From: a virus
Direction: 5' to 3' (one strand)
DNA: 52,435 bases
IMG/VR virus record: IMGVR_UViG_3300049846_000543
Coordinates: 1-52,435 of that record
Shown here: positions 1,839 through 48,996 of the stretch, in pieces
How positions within the stretch are numbered: position 1 is the stretch's first letter
Layout: every line of letters starts with the position of its first letter
The notes under the pieces: model-generated
The model's input: the letters and a program-made list of their open reading frames with translations, nothing else
What the model was told of the DNA's origin: nothing
Database searches by the model: none
Program-made: the position numbers and the translations under genes

Positions 1839-2276
1839 ATGACTGAAACTTTCATCAACCACTGTATCTCAATGTATGAGGCTCTTGATGAGAGAGCTAC
1901 ATACAAAGAGGTAGAAAGTGGTAAAGTTAAAGTCTTCGCAGGTTCATATACCGAAGTTTGGGTATCAACTGGAATCTCACAAACCTACTACAAACCTGTT
2001 CGTCGAGCGCTAGAGAGACACGAAGCTATAGAAGTCTTGCAGCGCGGTTCTAGGAATGCTGATACAGTGATAGTCCTAAAGGGACTACCTGATACCTGGG
2101 ACATCGACGGATGGAATGATAAGTCAGGCTTGACAGCTACCACTAGGTATGCTAAACTAGAGGTAGAGGTCGCAAACCTTAAACAATCACTAGGAGGGAT
2201 GAATGTAGTAAAGGCTCTAGAAGAAATTGAACGTAGGTTAGTACAGTTGGAAACAAAAAACAAAAAATCAAAATAA
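1839..2276 (+). CDS. Winged-helix-like protein with C-terminal coiled coil
   Basis: 145 residues. The first 85 residues suggest a small winged helix: a helix, TYKEVESGKVKVFAGS, a recognition-type helix (YYKPVRRALERHEAIEVL) and a beta wing ending VIVLKGLP. Residues 103-140 form a leucine/valine heptad (YAKLEVEVANLKQSL... ALEEIERRLVQLE) typical of a dimerising coiled coil, with a lysine-rich tail. A DNA-binding dimer is inferred; no exact family is recognised. It starts directly after the preceding stop and is followed by AAGGAG for the next gene. Confidence 0.65.
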   Translation: MTETFINHCISMYEALDERATYKEVESGKVKVFAGSYTEVWVSTGISQTYYKPVRRALERHEAIEVLQRGSRNADTVIVLKGLPDTWDIDGWNDKSGLTATTRYAKLEVEVANLKQSLGGMNVVKALEEIERRLVQLETKNKKSK

Positions 2277-2287
2277 GGAGTTGAAAA

Positions 2288-2647
2288 ATGTCACTTACTC
2301 TTGACGACATTACCGGCATTCTTGGCGAGACTCGTTCAAAGACTAATGCTGGTGAGTATCTTCGTGAGTTTATTGCAAGTGGTGAGCTCGGTCGTGAGGT
2401 AGATCTTAATGTTGGTTCTTTCGCAGGTAAGCCTGCTAAGACAGTTAAGACCGCTCTCGATAACGCTCGTAAGAAGTTCAATGAGGAGACTAAGGAACTC
2501 GTAATTCCTGGTGGACTCGATGTTCAGGTTCGTGTTAAGGAAGTCACCAATGGTAAGAAGGGTGATGAGCGAAAGGTTCTTGAGTCGCATCTTTTCGTTA
2601 TTAACACGAAGCTCGTTGCTGAGGCTCGTGCTAAGGCAACTAAGTAA
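2288..2647 (+). CDS. Abundant early protein of unknown function
   Basis: 119 residues, family not recognised. Alpha/beta, strongly Lys/Asp/Glu-rich, with no cysteine. It has an AAGGAG ribosome site and its codon use differs from its neighbours: CGT, CTC, AAG and GGT dominate where adjacent genes use AGA, CTA and AAA. The same bias appears in the ssDNA-binding protein at 10420 and the capsid gene, so high expression is inferred. It ends the operon; a 15-bp perfect hairpin follows 7 bases after the stop. A nucleic-acid-binding or host-takeover role is possible but unproven. Confidence 0.75.
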   Translation: MSLTLDDITGILGETRSKTNAGEYLREFIASGELGREVDLNVGSFAGKPAKTVKTALDNARKKFNEETKELVIPGGLDVQVRVKEVTNGKKGDERKVLESHLFVINTKLVAEARAKATK

Positions 2648-2654
2648 TTAAAGA

Positions 2655-2705
2655 GTTGTGGGGGATTAGTACCCTCTCTCAATTCCCCAGCTAATCCCCC
2701 ACAAC
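2655..2705 (+). terminator. 15-bp perfect hairpin after the early operon
   Basis: 2655-2669 (GTTGTGGGGGATTAG) pairs perfectly with 2691-2705 across a 21-base loop. It sits 7 bases after the stop of the gene at 2288. There is no T-tract after the stem, so it may be a factor-assisted terminator, an RNase-protective 3' end, or the first domain of the structured RNA that follows. Confidence 0.6.
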
Positions 2706-2706
2706 A

Positions 2707-2827
2707 AATAGTAGATACGGAATTCTCGGCTGAAGCAAATCCGTATCTACTATTGAGAGTAGACAGACCGAGCTTTATGGCTAGGAAGCGAACGGGGCTA
2801 CTCTCAATAGTAGATTCAAATCTACTA
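2707..2827 (+). ncRNA. Structured non-coding RNA with alternative stems
   Basis: No gene fits 2648-2953. 2707-2721 pairs perfectly (15 bp) with 2740-2754. The 3' side of that stem is re-used: 2745-2762 pairs perfectly (18 bp) with 2798-2815. The two stems share 2745-2754 and cannot both form fully. A third hairpin re-uses the same sequence, 2808-2816 with 2819-2827. Further weak stems follow at 2842-2868 and 2885-2904 (GGTTG/CAACC) before the tRNA gene. The layout resembles an attenuator or a processed structural RNA. No known RNA family is recognised. Confidence 0.55.
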
Positions 2828-2953
2828 AAGAAAGCTCACTATCAGAGATACCCTTTTAAGGTAATCTGAAAGTAGGTAAGGGGGGTTGCTATTCCCTCAA
2901 CCGTGTGAGTGTGAGTGGGAAAGGCATCCGCGACTCACATTATGAATTTTCTC

Positions 2954-3026
2954 GGACCGGAGGCGATTTGGTTAACGCGCTACTCTTATAAGGTAGAAAG
3001 AGAAGGTTCGAGTCCTTCCCGGTCTA
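2954..3026 (+). tRNA. tRNA-Ile (anticodon UAU)
   Basis: 73 bases fold into a cloverleaf: acceptor GGACCGG/CCGGTCT (one G-U pair) with discriminator A; D-stem GCG/CGC with loop ATTTGGTTAA; anticodon stem CTACT/GGTAG with loop CTTATAA (anticodon TAT); T-arm GAAGG-TTCGAGT-CCTTC. Base 8 is A rather than the usual T. CCA is not encoded. UAU reads AUA, a codon common in this AT-rich genome. AUA-reading tRNAs usually carry a modified CAU anticodon, so a true UAU anticodon is notable. Confidence 0.88.
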
Positions 3027-3040
3027 TTACAGGAGAAAGA

Positions 3041-3145
3041 ATGAGACGTTATAAGTGTAACAACATGAAGTGTAAGAACTACGGTTCTCACACTGGAAAG
3101 TCTAAGTATTGTCGTGAGTGTAAATCTAGAACGGTTAAGGCATGA
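3041..3145 (+). CDS. 34-residue zinc-ribbon peptide
   Basis: 34 residues, very basic. Four cysteines in two pairs (CNNMKC at residues 6-11 and CREC at 24-27) give a minimal zinc ribbon. The ATG at 3041 has an AGGAGAAAGA ribosome site just after the tRNA-Ile 3' end, so it may be translated from a tRNA-processed transcript. The stop overlaps the next start as ATGA. Nucleic-acid binding is inferred from charge and fold only. Confidence 0.65.
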   Translation: MRRYKCNNMKCKNYGSHTGKSKYCRECKSRTVKA

Positions 3146-3546: not shown

Positions 3547-3859
3547 AAAAGGGGAATGTAACGGTTGTGGATTTTGTTGCGAGATTATTACACAAGTTCA
3601 CCTAGATTTTGTACTTAATGATCCAGACTGGATTAGAGTTAGAGGATTACCCCCTAATGGTAGAAAACTCTATTTGATTAATGATCCGTGTCCACAATTA
3701 GAGCAAGAAACTAAGCGTTGCAAAGTTTACGAAAATCGTCCACAACTTTGTAAAGATTTCCCACAAGAACCTGATGACATCGCAAATTCTCCGTGTTCAT
3801 ATTATTTTGAGAACACCGAAACAGGAGAAATTGTTACAGGATCGAATCAGGGAGTATAG
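3536..3859 (+). CDS. YkgJ-type cysteine-cluster protein
   Basis: 107 residues. The N-terminus carries GECNGCGFCCE, the CxxCxxCC signature of the YkgJ/Fli-B zinc- or iron-chelating family (PF03692), with further cysteines in CPQLE, RCKVYENRP and LCKDFP as the family shows. The biochemical role of the family is not established. I favour the ATG at 3536; a GTG at 3524 is an alternative. It overlaps the preceding gene by 11 bases, and its last codons and TAG stop lie inside the 5' acceptor and D-arm start of the tRNA-Lys gene, so tRNA processing would destroy this message's 3' end. Confidence 0.85.
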   Translation: MWVRKGECNGCGFCCEIITQVHLDFVLNDPDWIRVRGLPPNGRKLYLINDPCPQLEQETKRCKVYENRPQLCKDFPQEPDDIANSPCSYYFENTETGEIVTGSNQGV

Positions 3860-3920
3860 GTCAATGGTAGACCTCCTGACTTTTAATCAGGCTATCTAGG
3901 TTCGATTCCTAGTACTCCCA
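3850..3920 (+). tRNA. tRNA-Lys (anticodon UUU)
   Basis: 71 bases: acceptor GGGAGTA/TACTCCC with discriminator A, bases TA at 8-9, D-arm GGTC-AATGGTA-GACC, anticodon stem CCTGA/TCAGG with loop CTTTTAA (anticodon TTT), four-base variable loop, T-arm CTAGG-TTCGATT-CCTAG. All stems are perfect. CCA is not encoded. It reads AAA/AAG. Its first 10 bases overlap the end of the YkgJ-type gene. Confidence 0.95.
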
Positions 3921-3942
3921 TCAAATCTGTAAATCCTGAATT

Positions 3943-3977
3943 AACCGCTTGACAACCGCTTAAATCTATGCTAGGGT
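3943..3977 (+). promoter_or_regulatory. Promoter with operator-like AACCGCTT repeats
   Basis: TTGACA at 3949-3954, a 17-base spacer and TAGGGT at 3972-3977. Two direct copies of AACCGCTT (3943-3950 and 3954-3961) overlap the -35 box at an 11-base step, one helical turn. A third, inverted copy within a 13-base match lies downstream at 4013-4025. Repressor binding is a natural reading. It drives the lytic-transglycosylase-like gene. Confidence 0.7.
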
Positions 3978-3999
3978 CGAATTGCGCGCCTACGCCGCA

Positions 4000-4042
4000 G
4001 CGGCCGGTAGATGATTTAAGCGGTTGGATCTCTACCGGCCGC
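4000..4042 (+). promoter_or_regulatory. GC-rich leader hairpin with operator half-site in loop
   Basis: GCGGCCGGTAGA (4000-4011) pairs perfectly with 4031-4042 (12 bp), much richer in G+C than its surroundings. The 19-base loop contains GATTTAAGCGGTT, the exact reverse complement of 13 bases in the upstream promoter (3954-3966). It could be an attenuator in the leader, a protein-binding site, or both. Confidence 0.55.
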
Positions 4043-15359: not shown

Positions 15360-17673
15360 GCATCCTTTAGCTGAATGTGAAACTTGTCCATTACAAGGAG
15401 AACGGTGTGCTCCCACCAAAGGCCCCACAAGTGCCAAAGTGGCTATTGTTTCTCGTTCCCCTGGCTCTACTGATGTCCGTATTGGAGCTCCTTTTTCTGG
15501 AGCTTCCGGTAAAATTCTCGATCACCTTCTTAGTAGTAATCATTATTCTCGAAGCGATGTTTTGGTTACTAATCTTGTTCTTTGCCAAACGGATGATCCA
15601 CCGAAAGCGGCGATAAATGCCTGTAGAAACAGATTACGATCAGAAATCGAAAACGTCAATACCATCATTGCCTGCGGAAGTGAAGCGGTAAGAGAGTTTA
15701 TAGGTCCAATTGCGATCCAGAAGGCGAGAGGTCTTGAACACAAGAAAGAGAATAAAAGGATTATTGCTACGAATAATCCCGCTGCTGTTTTGTATGATTC
15801 TGATTCTTTTCCTAATTTGGTTGAGGATTTCAAACTCGCTTTAAATCCTCCACCATCAGTTGTTCTTCCGGAGGTTAAAATCTATGATTCGGAGAAGGAA
15901 GCTAAAGCTCTTTTTGATTTTCTATCGAGGCATCAAGGTTTGGTAGCAACGGACCTTGAAGGACATTCCCCACATATCGAATGTGCAGGATTCTCAATTG
16001 AACCCAATGAGGCACATGTTCTAACTAGACGTGCTATTGTACAATCCGAATCCGCCTTTCGAAAGTTCTACGAATCAAAGAAAGACTGGTTGTGGCATAA
16101 CGGAGTCTACGATGTAAAACTTCTAAGACGAAATCAGATTAACTCACGAATAGTACAAGACACATATCCTCTATCATATGTCCTAGACGAAAGGACTACT
16201 GGAGTACACAATCTTGAATACCTCGCTAGAATGCAACTCGGATGGACAAACTACGAACCCGAATCTGTCGAACATTATAAAGATACAGGAGAACTACCGG
16301 AGGACATTACAGAACTATACGAATACAATGGATATGACTGCGCAGCAACTTTACAACTGTACCATATCCTTATCAATAAAGCCAGAGAAGATGAAGTAGA
16401 AGAACTGTACAATCGTTATATTCCAAGACTCAATGCTCTTGTAGATGTTGAGCTTCGAGGATTCTTCTATGATGATATCGCAGCAGCGGACCTGAACGAA
16501 GAAATTGTAATACCTGAGATCCGCAAGCTAAAGAAAGAGATGCAAGAGTTAGTAGGACTTGAGTTTTTCAATCCTGCATCTAATCCACAAACTCAAGCAT
16601 TTGTATATGATACTTGTGGACTAGCTCATAATCTTAAGGATACGAAGAAACGGAAATTCTCGAGGTCGTTCTCAGATCCAGTACGAGTGGAAGTTCTAGA
16701 AGGACGATTCACTTGTAATTCTAAGTACAAGGATAAACTAGTAAAATTTGCAGAGCTACATGACAATTGGTCAGAGATTGACAAACAACGCGGTACTTAC
16801 ATCGAAGGCTTAATTAAGCTAGTAGCACCTGATGGTAAATTATACTGTACGTTCAATCCTTGTGGAACTGTAACTGGTCGATGGTCAGGAAGAACACCTA
16901 ACTTTCAGAATATTACAAGAACTGGTAAGGGTGTAGTTCCTGCTATTCGTACATTGTTCAAGCCTTCACCAGGAAACGTAATCGTATCCGCTGATTTCTC
17001 ACAAGCTGAGCTTAGATGTATTGCGCAATTTAGTGGAGATGTTGAGCTCTCTGCTATTTATCGTGAGTCTACTAGATCACTACACAAAGAGACAGCAGCA
17101 GCTTTCTATGGTGAAGACTACACAAAGGACGAATACGTAAAATCGAAGAACATCAACTTTGGTGTATGTTTCGGACAGTCCGCTTTTGCTTTCGCACAGA
17201 TGTATCATATGCCACAAGAAGAAGCTCAAGCATATATCGACAATTGGTTCAAGAAGTTCCCCACGGTTCTAGAATGGATTAATGAGACAAACAAGAGAAC
17301 CCTACAGGACAACTATCTTACTAATCCGTTTGGACGTAAGCGTAGATTCTATCTGATAACTGAGGAGAACGTAGGAGATACATTACGAGAAGGTGTCAAC
17401 TTCCTACCCCAATCTACAGCAGCAGACTTTACGATCGAAGCACTACATAAGCTTAATACTGAAGGTGTACCGATAATCTCTACAGTCCACGATTCAATAA
17501 TCGCAGACGTACCACAAAACGAAGCAATGGATGTAGCACTCTTAATGAAAAAAGTAATGGAAACACAACCCAAAGAAACTATCGGATGGGATCTACCATT
17601 CAAAGTTGATATCTCAATGTCAGATATTTCATGGGGACACGTAGAAGAAATAGAATTGGAGATTGCAGTATGA
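15349..17673 (+). CDS. UDG-like / 3'-5' exonuclease / family A DNA polymerase fusion
   Basis: 774 residues. Residues 9-165 align with family 4 uracil-DNA glycosylases: CETC, a Cys in LVLC and NAC (iron-sulfur ligands), SPGSTDVRIGAPFSGASGKI and VTNLVLC. Key catalytic positions are changed (GExPG is SRSPG; HPA is NPA), so glycosylase activity is doubtful and uracil sensing possible. Residues about 200-345 hold Exo I TDLEG, Exo II NGVYD and Exo III YNGYD. Polymerase motif A is DFSQAELR, motif B KNINFGVCFGQSAFAF with Phe in place of the usual Tyr, motif C VHDSI. It is the replicative polymerase. ATG 15349 overlaps the preceding stop; an upstream start at 15322 is less likely. Confidence 0.93.
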   Translation: MIRKHPLAECETCPLQGERCAPTKGPTSAKVAIVSRSPGSTDVRIGAPFSGASGKILDHLLSSNHYSRSDVLVTNLVLCQTDDPPKAAINACRNRLRSEIENVNTIIACGSEAVREFIGPIAIQKARGLEHKKENKRIIATNNPAAVLYDSDSFPNLVEDFKLALNPPPSVVLPEVKIYDSEKEAKALFDFLSRHQGLVATDLEGHSPHIECAGFSIEPNEAHVLTRRAIVQSESAFRKFYESKKDWLWHNGVYDVKLLRRNQINSRIVQDTYPLSYVLDERTTGVHNLEYLARMQLGWTNYEPESVEHYKDTGELPEDITELYEYNGYDCAATLQLYHILINKAREDEVEELYNRYIPRLNALVDVELRGFFYDDIAAADLNEEIVIPEIRKLKKEMQELVGLEFFNPASNPQTQAFVYDTCGLAHNLKDTKKRKFSRSFSDPVRVEVLEGRFTCNSKYKDKLVKFAELHDNWSEIDKQRGTYIEGLIKLVAPDGKLYCTFNPCGTVTGRWSGRTPNFQNITRTGKGVVPAIRTLFKPSPGNVIVSADFSQAELRCIAQFSGDVELSAIYRESTRSLHKETAAAFYGEDYTKDEYVKSKNINFGVCFGQSAFAFAQMYHMPQEEAQAYIDNWFKKFPTVLEWINETNKRTLQDNYLTNPFGRKRRFYLITEENVGDTLREGVNFLPQSTAADFTIEALHKLNTEGVPIISTVHDSIIADVPQNEAMDVALLMKKVMETQPKETIGWDLPFKVDISMSDISWGHVEEIELEIAV

Positions 17674-48263: not shown

Positions 48264-48469
48264 TTAATATATCCTGTTTGATGTAATCTAGTTGCTAGGT
48301 GGGCTCTATTTTTTGCTCTTAATTTCCAAAGACACTTTTTCAAATGAGTCTTAGTAGTTTCTAAAGATACATTTAAAGTATCTGCTATTTCTTGATTAGT
48401 GTATCCTTGTGCTGCGAGAATCGCTGTTCTGAGTTGTATTGAAGATAAAGGTCGTAAATTCTCTCGCAT
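48215..48469 (-). CDS. LuxR/GerE-type helix-turn-helix protein
   Basis: 84 residues. LRPLSSIQLRTAILAAQGYT and NQEIADTLNVSLETTKTHLKKCLWKL follow the GerE tetra-helical pattern (the scissor turn E-IA..L..S..TVK.H). It consists of little beyond the DNA-binding domain. It overlaps the sigma-factor gene's 3' end by 85 bases in another frame, suggesting the two are made together. Likely a late-transcription activator. Confidence 0.8.
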   Translation of the reverse strand: MRENLRPLSSIQLRTAILAAQGYTNQEIADTLNVSLETTKTHLKKCLWKLRAKNRAHLATRLHQTGYIKWDEKELQQWDYLHLQ

Positions 48470-48996
48470 AATTGGCTAATTCTCGATTCTGTAACATTGA
48501 TTTGTTTTGCAATCTCTGTCCCCGTATAGCCCTCTATGCGCATTAAAGCTACATAACGTTGTCTATCTGTCAAGGTATCTAAGAAATTTTCAAAATCTAT
48601 GTTAAAATCTATATTAGGAAGATTATCAGCTTTTAGTTCAAGTCCTGAACGTTCATCTGTATCTTCCATTAAAAGATCTAGAGAGTAAACAGTAAAACCT
48701 AGAAACTTAAAATTTTCCTCGTTATACTGTGATCTTTTGATACCTTTGTATTGTTGTACTAATTTTCGTCTTACATCTATCGATGCGCCATAAGCTCTTT
48801 GGTATAAATAACTTAATAAGGATGAACCTTTATCAGGATCATGTAAAGTGTAAGCTCTGTATAATTTTTCCTGTATTTCAGCTATAACATCATCTAACAT
48901 AAAATCGAACTGCATACAGTTCTTTAAAGCAAAATGTTTAGATAGACGCTTTATAGTTTCTATGTCTTCTTGCTTTATTTCCGATAGTGGCGGCAT
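48385..48996 (-). CDS. Phage-encoded sigma factor
   Basis: 203 residues. Region 2: DVIAEIQEKLYRAYTLHDPD then KGSSLLSYLYQRAYGASIDVRR, matching core binding and -10 melting. Region 4: LTDRQRYVALMRIEGYTGTE then IAKQINVTESRISQLCERIY, the -35 recognising HTH. No region 1.1 or 3 is clear, as in alternative sigma factors. It probably redirects host RNA polymerase to late promoters, where sigma-70 boxes were not found. It lies inside the late region, so early basal expression must arise otherwise. Confidence 0.85.
   Translation of the reverse strand: MPPLSEIKQEDIETIKRLSKHFALKNCMQFDFMLDDVIAEIQEKLYRAYTLHDPDKGSSLLSYLYQRAYGASIDVRRKLVQQYKGIKRSQYNEENFKFLGFTVYSLDLLMEDTDERSGLELKADNLPNIDFNIDFENFLDTLTDRQRYVALMRIEGYTGTEIAKQINVTESRISQLCERIYDLYLQYNSEQRFSQHKDTLIKK

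Follow-up and report, generated by a model that had tools for sequence, protein, structure and literature searches.

The window, the whole stretch of DNA that was analysed (a single IMG/VR virus record, 52,435 bases long and with 39% GC), possesses a chain of hairpins at 2655-2827 directly behind the stop codon of a small gene. This element is real, conserved within one clade of uncultured soil siphophages and outside Rfam, and it is best described as a variant of the intercistronic processing or stabilising signals. It is possibly an intercistronic cut-and-refold site, at which a putative RNase III cut would yield two end-capped RNAs. A rough probability of 45% is assigned to this reading.

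Hairpins and neighboring genes in the window

The gene that precedes the element, always and in every phage that has it, is located at 2288-2647 (+ strand) and encodes a protein of 119 amino acids. Homologs are present in all of the phages compared, and the family is highly divergent (13-77% identity to the window protein). The protein belongs to no Pfam or PHROGs family, its structural model (mean pLDDT 82) has no fold match at E <= 0.001, and no homologs were found in cultured phages. A consensus promoter, TTGACA-N17-TAAACT with TATGC ahead of the -10, is found at 2130-2158 (+ strand) within the end of the preceding gene. This promoter would drive gene 2288-2647 plus the element. In 30 of 34 phages, the window included, a strong promoter of the form TTGACA-N17-TAnnnT, in many cases with a TG ahead of the -10, lies 450-645 nt 5' of the homolog's stop codon.

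All of the hairpins are on the + strand. The first, at 2655-2705, lies ahead of those that share arms and has a G-rich 5' arm and a perfect 15-bp stem (2655-2669/2691-2705), or 16 pairs once one G.U is counted. The second, S1 (2707-2754), has a perfect 15-bp stem (2707-2721/2740-2754) that contains A1 (AATAGTAGAT, 2707-2716), and its 3' base is A' (ATCTACTATT, 2745-2754). A' is common to two stems that overlap by 10 nt, as it pairs with A1 in S1 and with A2 in S2. S2 (2745-2815) is the long duplex A'B:B'A2, a perfect 18 bp (2745-2762/2798-2815), with B at 2755-2762 and B' at 2798-2805 forming the putative cut region. A2 (2806-2815) is a second copy of A1, AATAGTAGAT, and its partner can be A' (in S2) or A'' (in S3). 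S3, TAGTAGAT-TCAA-ATCTACTA (2808-2827), has 8 bp (2808-2815/2820-2827), and A'' is at 2820-2827. All four hairpins were named in the original prediction, and each was recovered exactly.

The original prediction also considered such pairing unlikely to arise by chance, and the shuffles agree. The predicted fold of 2640-2840 has an energy of -76.8 kcal/mol (z = -7.4), a stability that no shuffle out of 200 reached. A strict chain was defined, with thresholds of our own choice, as two stems of at least 10 Watson-Crick pairs each that have at least 5 nt of one arm in common. Exactly one strict chain is found in the 52-kb window, the hairpin chain at 2655-2827, and 100 shuffles of the element region contained none. 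There is no long reading frame between 2648 and 2953; the longest frame wholly within it is a TTG frame of 38 codons (+ strand, 2753-2869), or 30 codons from its ATG. A peptide encoded in the S2 loop was considered for this frame and rejected, as most relatives have no ATG in the S2 loop.

Between the chain and the next gene there is a structured leader (2828-2953, + strand) for which a multi-branch fold is predicted when 2645-3030 is folded. The gene that follows is tRNA-Ile(UAU) at 2954-3026 (+ strand). The chain had been described as lying next to a tRNA gene, and in the window the tRNA does start 127 nt downstream. However, the element is tied to the 3' end of gene 2288-2647. The next feature after the element in most relatives is a small ORF, a Y-like RNA or another structured RNA, with no tRNA, and thus the tRNA is an incidental neighbor.

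Further along the window, the hairpin cluster at 3953-4042 was tried as a repeat of the element and rejected, as it consists of a promoter and a hairpin in the 5' UTR, with no chain. The region 3949-4042 contains the promoter TTGACA-N17-TAGGGT and a 12-bp hairpin in its own leader (GCGGCCGGTAGA/TCTACCGGCCGC), and the -35/spacer sequence CAACCGCTTAAATC is exactly complementary to the loop of that hairpin. The hairpin and promoter recur in a relative (L018), whereas the complementarity does not. A sigma-70-like protein (Pfam regions 2 and 4) is encoded at 48385-48996 on the minus strand.

Conservation and covariation in related phages

Relatives were gathered by protein homology and not by the element. 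The search went outward from the DNA polymerase to a helicase alignment, then to a PD-(D/E)XK nuclease alignment and finally to the gene-2288 family. The profile of gene 2288-2647 found a homolog in 25 distinct phages, and two later scans with the family brought in 11 more loci, of which one is near a locus found before, for about 35 distinct phages overall. Single-protein scans with window proteins near the element found nothing, an exact-pattern scan of IMG/VR for the second stem gave no match, and no DNA relatives of the element region were found in cultured phages. Genome contigs contained only distant helicases and served as background. The window terminase is about 30-35% identical to terminases of Arthrobacter, Gordonia and Microbacterium phages. 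All of the phages compared are metagenomic and unevenly sampled, related phages are not fully independent, and the structures are predicted.

The layout A1...A'B...B'A2...(A'') is present directly 3' of the stop codon of the gene-2288 homolog in 24 of the approximately 35 distinct phages, and in these 24 the 3' base of S1 (A') doubles as the 5' base of the longer S2. Every one of the 11 later loci, whose retrieval took no account of the element, has it. In the other 11 members of the clade, the homolog is followed by a simple hairpin only, or by nothing. Two loci that match A1 weakly (5/8), L114 and L141, were counted among the 24 by layout. S2 is 15-25 bp long in the 24 phages (20.9 +/- 2.7 bp), although the size of its loop varies between 6 and 113 nt, and it is longer than S1 and S3. 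S2 reaches at least 22 bp in about half of the phages and has 18 bp in the window. A good A'' is present in only 9 of 23 phages.

Eight places in 600 kb of DNA from these phages have a strict chain, and six of the eight are directly after the gene-2288 homolog. At the element position, 6 of 25 phages have a strict chain against 0.01 expected from dinucleotide shuffles. The bacterial background has 13 chains in 724 kb, with shorter stems of mostly 10-14 pairs. Because bacterial DNA also has such chains, arm sharing by itself is not unique to these phages; the stem length together with the fixed position is.

The arms differ in sequence from phage to phage. L094 has the same A as the window (TAGTAGAT), with an unrelated B that is still fully paired (AAGTGCTAGTG/CACTAGCACTT). 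A1 and A2 are both TAATATGGGA in L197 and both ATCAAGCCTA in L176. The perfection of S2 carries no weight as evidence, as S2 was selected by its pairing; A1 and A'' were not selected. On average, 7.1 of 8 positions of A' pair with the region upstream of it in the same phage, compared with 4.8 after these regions have been exchanged among phages (permutation z = 8.8, n = 23, with L191, near L114, and L143, near L141, dropped). A2 has 5.2 paired with its own downstream 40 nt against 4.2 when swapped (permutation z = 5.5), which tests A2/A''. A1, A' and A2 change together while their sequences differ. The compensatory change that the original prediction had named as a check is strongly present.

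On the transcribed strand, the non-Watson-Crick pairs include 40 G.U and 8 A.C (p = 3e-6), although the search tolerated both kinds equally. This excess indicates that selection acts on RNA. The asymmetry is what would be expected of RNA made from this strand, unlike a DNA palindrome, and a DNA-level palindrome such as an origin or a recombination site is therefore disfavoured. With compensatory change and tolerance of G.U both found, the element appears to be a conserved structured RNA acting on the + strand. In this, the idea of an RNA-level element with mutually exclusive long stems holds up.

Possible functions of the element

The cut-and-refold reading would work as follows. In the growing transcript, A' would pair with A1 first. 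Once B'A2 is made, the duplex A'B:B'A2 of about 21 bp would form by strand exchange at little energy cost. As the longest helix of the element, S2 could then be the target of a host RNase specific for double strands, with RNase III the most likely candidate. Cleavage within B/B' would part the strands. With A1:A' closed, the upstream half would end in a 3' hairpin behind the stop codon of gene 2288-2647; with A2:A'' closed, the downstream half would begin with a 5' hairpin ahead of the next ORF, tRNA or structured RNA. A single cut would thus give two end-capped RNAs.

This reading is favoured because the length of S2 is confined, because RNase III provides precedents, and because in silico halves complete S1 and S3. 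S2 is a long, near-uninterrupted intercistronic duplex (15-25 bp) after the gene-2288 stop codon and has a promoter upstream, as an RNase III site should. RNase III needs a duplex of about 22 nt as a minimum target; RNAs of phages T7 and lambda are among its substrates, and cleavage by it can uncover RBSs or leave hairpins that stabilise the RNA (PMC5371410). A 5' hairpin is able to stabilise a long downstream RNA (PMC3997798). An in silico cut of the window element in B/B' leaves two halves that are predicted to fold as a complete S1 and a complete S3. The unrelated kinds of downstream neighbor are what would be expected of a separator. However, S2 is shorter than the RNase III minimum in about half of the phages, the window included, only a minority has a good A'', and 11 members of the clade lack the chain. 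Own promoters are also often located just downstream of the element, and separation is perhaps unneeded there. The original prediction had offered a processed structural RNA as one role. Processing is near to the favoured reading, but the element looks more like a processing site than its product.

The predicted energies of the competing states are close. The state with A1:A' and A2:A'' and the S2 state are at most 3 kcal/mol apart in 17 of the 24 phages. S2 is predicted to be favoured in 17 of the 24, mostly by 1-5 kcal/mol. In the window, S1+S3 is predicted to be favoured over S2 by 2.8 kcal/mol, and thus S2 may be a minor state there. Near-equal energies fit the model of a three-strand exchange in which the swapped segments are alike. 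When the RNA ends at the end of the 5' arm of S2, A' is predicted to pair with A1 in nearly all cases. A count of switching nucleotides along the growing RNA, compared with shuffles, was noisy. It located A' in relatives, and in the window it gave one nucleotide only, with S1 winning at equilibrium.

Two states this close could also serve as a bistable translational switch in which S2 hides the start of a downstream small ORF and S1+S3 exposes it; a protein, or ribosomes that complete translation of the upstream gene, would set the switch. The Shine-Dalgarno (SD) sequence or the start codon is inside A2 in L155, L153, L141 and L143, and an SD-ATG is closely 3' of A2 in many relatives. Predicted exposure rises between the states from 0.16 to 0.54 in L155 and from 0.00 to 0.69 in L141. 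However, these two are the exceptions among the 17 phages tested, most of which have about equal SD exposure in both states; in L153 it takes a cut to raise exposure. No ORF directly follows the element in the window, L094 or L114, and the downstream ORFs are from unrelated families. Because SD exposure hardly depends on the state in most phages, a general translation switch is unlikely. The suggestion that the chain is a switch controlling entry into the tRNA and early genes loses ground for the same reason.

The competing hairpins could instead act on transcription, as an attenuator or terminator that sets passage from the upstream gene into the island of genes downstream. The first hairpin is close behind the stop codon, and new promoters are often found further down. 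On the other side, the + strand at 2655-2830 has no T-run, terminator-like site or intrinsic terminator (GC-rich hairpin plus T-run). This does not settle the matter, as T-runs are absent from some actinobacterial terminators; the explanation is considered improbable.

It is equally doubtful that the element is an independent, stable non-coding RNA, which might act as a decoy or bind a protein. It would be at home in an RNA-rich island, which has tRNAs, tmRNA in L122 and L158, Y-like motifs in six loci and a manA RNA in L023. However, the loop (6-113 nt) has no conserved sequence for a partner, and the element keeps a fixed position relative to an mRNA stop codon. Nothing was found in support of a nuclease decoy. 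Least probable is a functionless mutational by-product, with replication template switching copying the arms and keeping palindromes perfect: many stems are perfect and the A1/A2 copies look duplicated, but a strand-wise bias of G.U over A.C is not expected of a DNA process, and six of the eight places with strict chains in 600 kb are at one position.

Comparison with known RNAs and the downstream island

The cut-and-refold reading places the element near the RNase III sites of T7 early mRNA and lambda and the E. coli adhE and lambda cIII leaders, with which it has in common an intercistronic or leader position and a long duplex. Cuts at those sites can release messages, expose RBSs or leave stabilising hairpins (PMC5371410), whereas in the element cutting is proposed. 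A limited search of the open-access literature found no description of its pairing logic, in which three hairpins share arms and each half completes its own terminal hairpin. The intercistronic expression element (IEE) of plastids is also a small intergenic element, with cleavage into stable separate mRNAs (PMC2230500). The IEE is defined by sequence and belongs to plant plastids, whereas the phage element keeps its architecture and not its sequence. In bistable switches and attenuators, such as riboswitch-type expression platforms, one strand likewise pairs with an upstream or a downstream partner in mutually exclusive ways. Unlike these, the phage element has no conserved ligand-binding core and no terminator T-run, and SD exposure is mostly independent of its state. 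GOLLD, ROOL and other large phage RNAs are structured and lie near tRNAs, whereas the phage element is much shorter, has no conserved adjoining tRNA and has no Rfam match. An Rfam scan of the window at the gathering threshold found tRNAs only, and a scan at E <= 5 gave, besides tRNAs, only weak sub-threshold matches. This agrees with the original prediction, which had claimed no family.

The island after the gene-2288 homolog contains a number of other structured RNAs. A motif, GGCCGGA..GGGUUAUC (or GUUACC)..CAUGACC, is present in six loci (L122:3844, L150:6599, L173:1137, L175:2232, L183:2206 and L197:2765), and we take it to resemble the Ro60-binding helix of Y RNAs. Weak sub-threshold RF01656 matches were found in L183 and L175, and in L183 the Y-like motif sits inside the S2 loop. 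L023 has a manA RNA above the Rfam threshold and a weak YrlA match (3809-3985, 3067-3145), and a gene for a TROVE (Ro60) domain over the Pfam cut-off is at 17151-17405 of its record (L199). Several degenerate tRNA-like repeats lie between the manA RNA, the YrlA match and the TROVE gene. By eye, L024 (2427-2592) has what resembles a second manA RNA. tmRNA genes are present in L122 (4253-4588) and L158 (6292-6588). Repeated modules bounded by ACGTAGTTGAAT and ATTGAGCTACGT, with variable interiors, are chained so that neighbors share flanks (L094:3953-4160, L102:2883-3110, L114:4690-4890, L122:4130-4940 and L158:6595-6900), and they flank a tRNA-like gene and tmRNA. Separately, on the minus strand of L012 (8942-9044 and 10687-10759) there is an 18-bp stem hiding a gene's RBS and start codon; a competitor for the 5' arm of this stem lies upstream, and a perfect stem of 24 bp further on. 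A tRNA with anticodon TTA on the same strand (L012:9269-9344) was called as a stop-codon tRNA and is a possible suppressor.

More tentatively, the element could represent a new class of RNA defined by topology, in which one central cut completes a protective hairpin on each new end, and which would serve across the clade as a separator of the gene message from downstream tRNAs, Y-like RNAs or small ORFs. RNA families are mostly recognized by their sequence. This element keeps a three-strand pairing logic and almost no sequence, and is therefore missed by ordinary scans. It also flags a region of soil phage genomes where structured RNAs abound, among them tmRNA, Y-like RNAs, manA RNA and repeated unnamed modules. 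If the cut-and-refold reading is true, the element would give these phages a compact route to separate, end-capped RNAs from one transcript.
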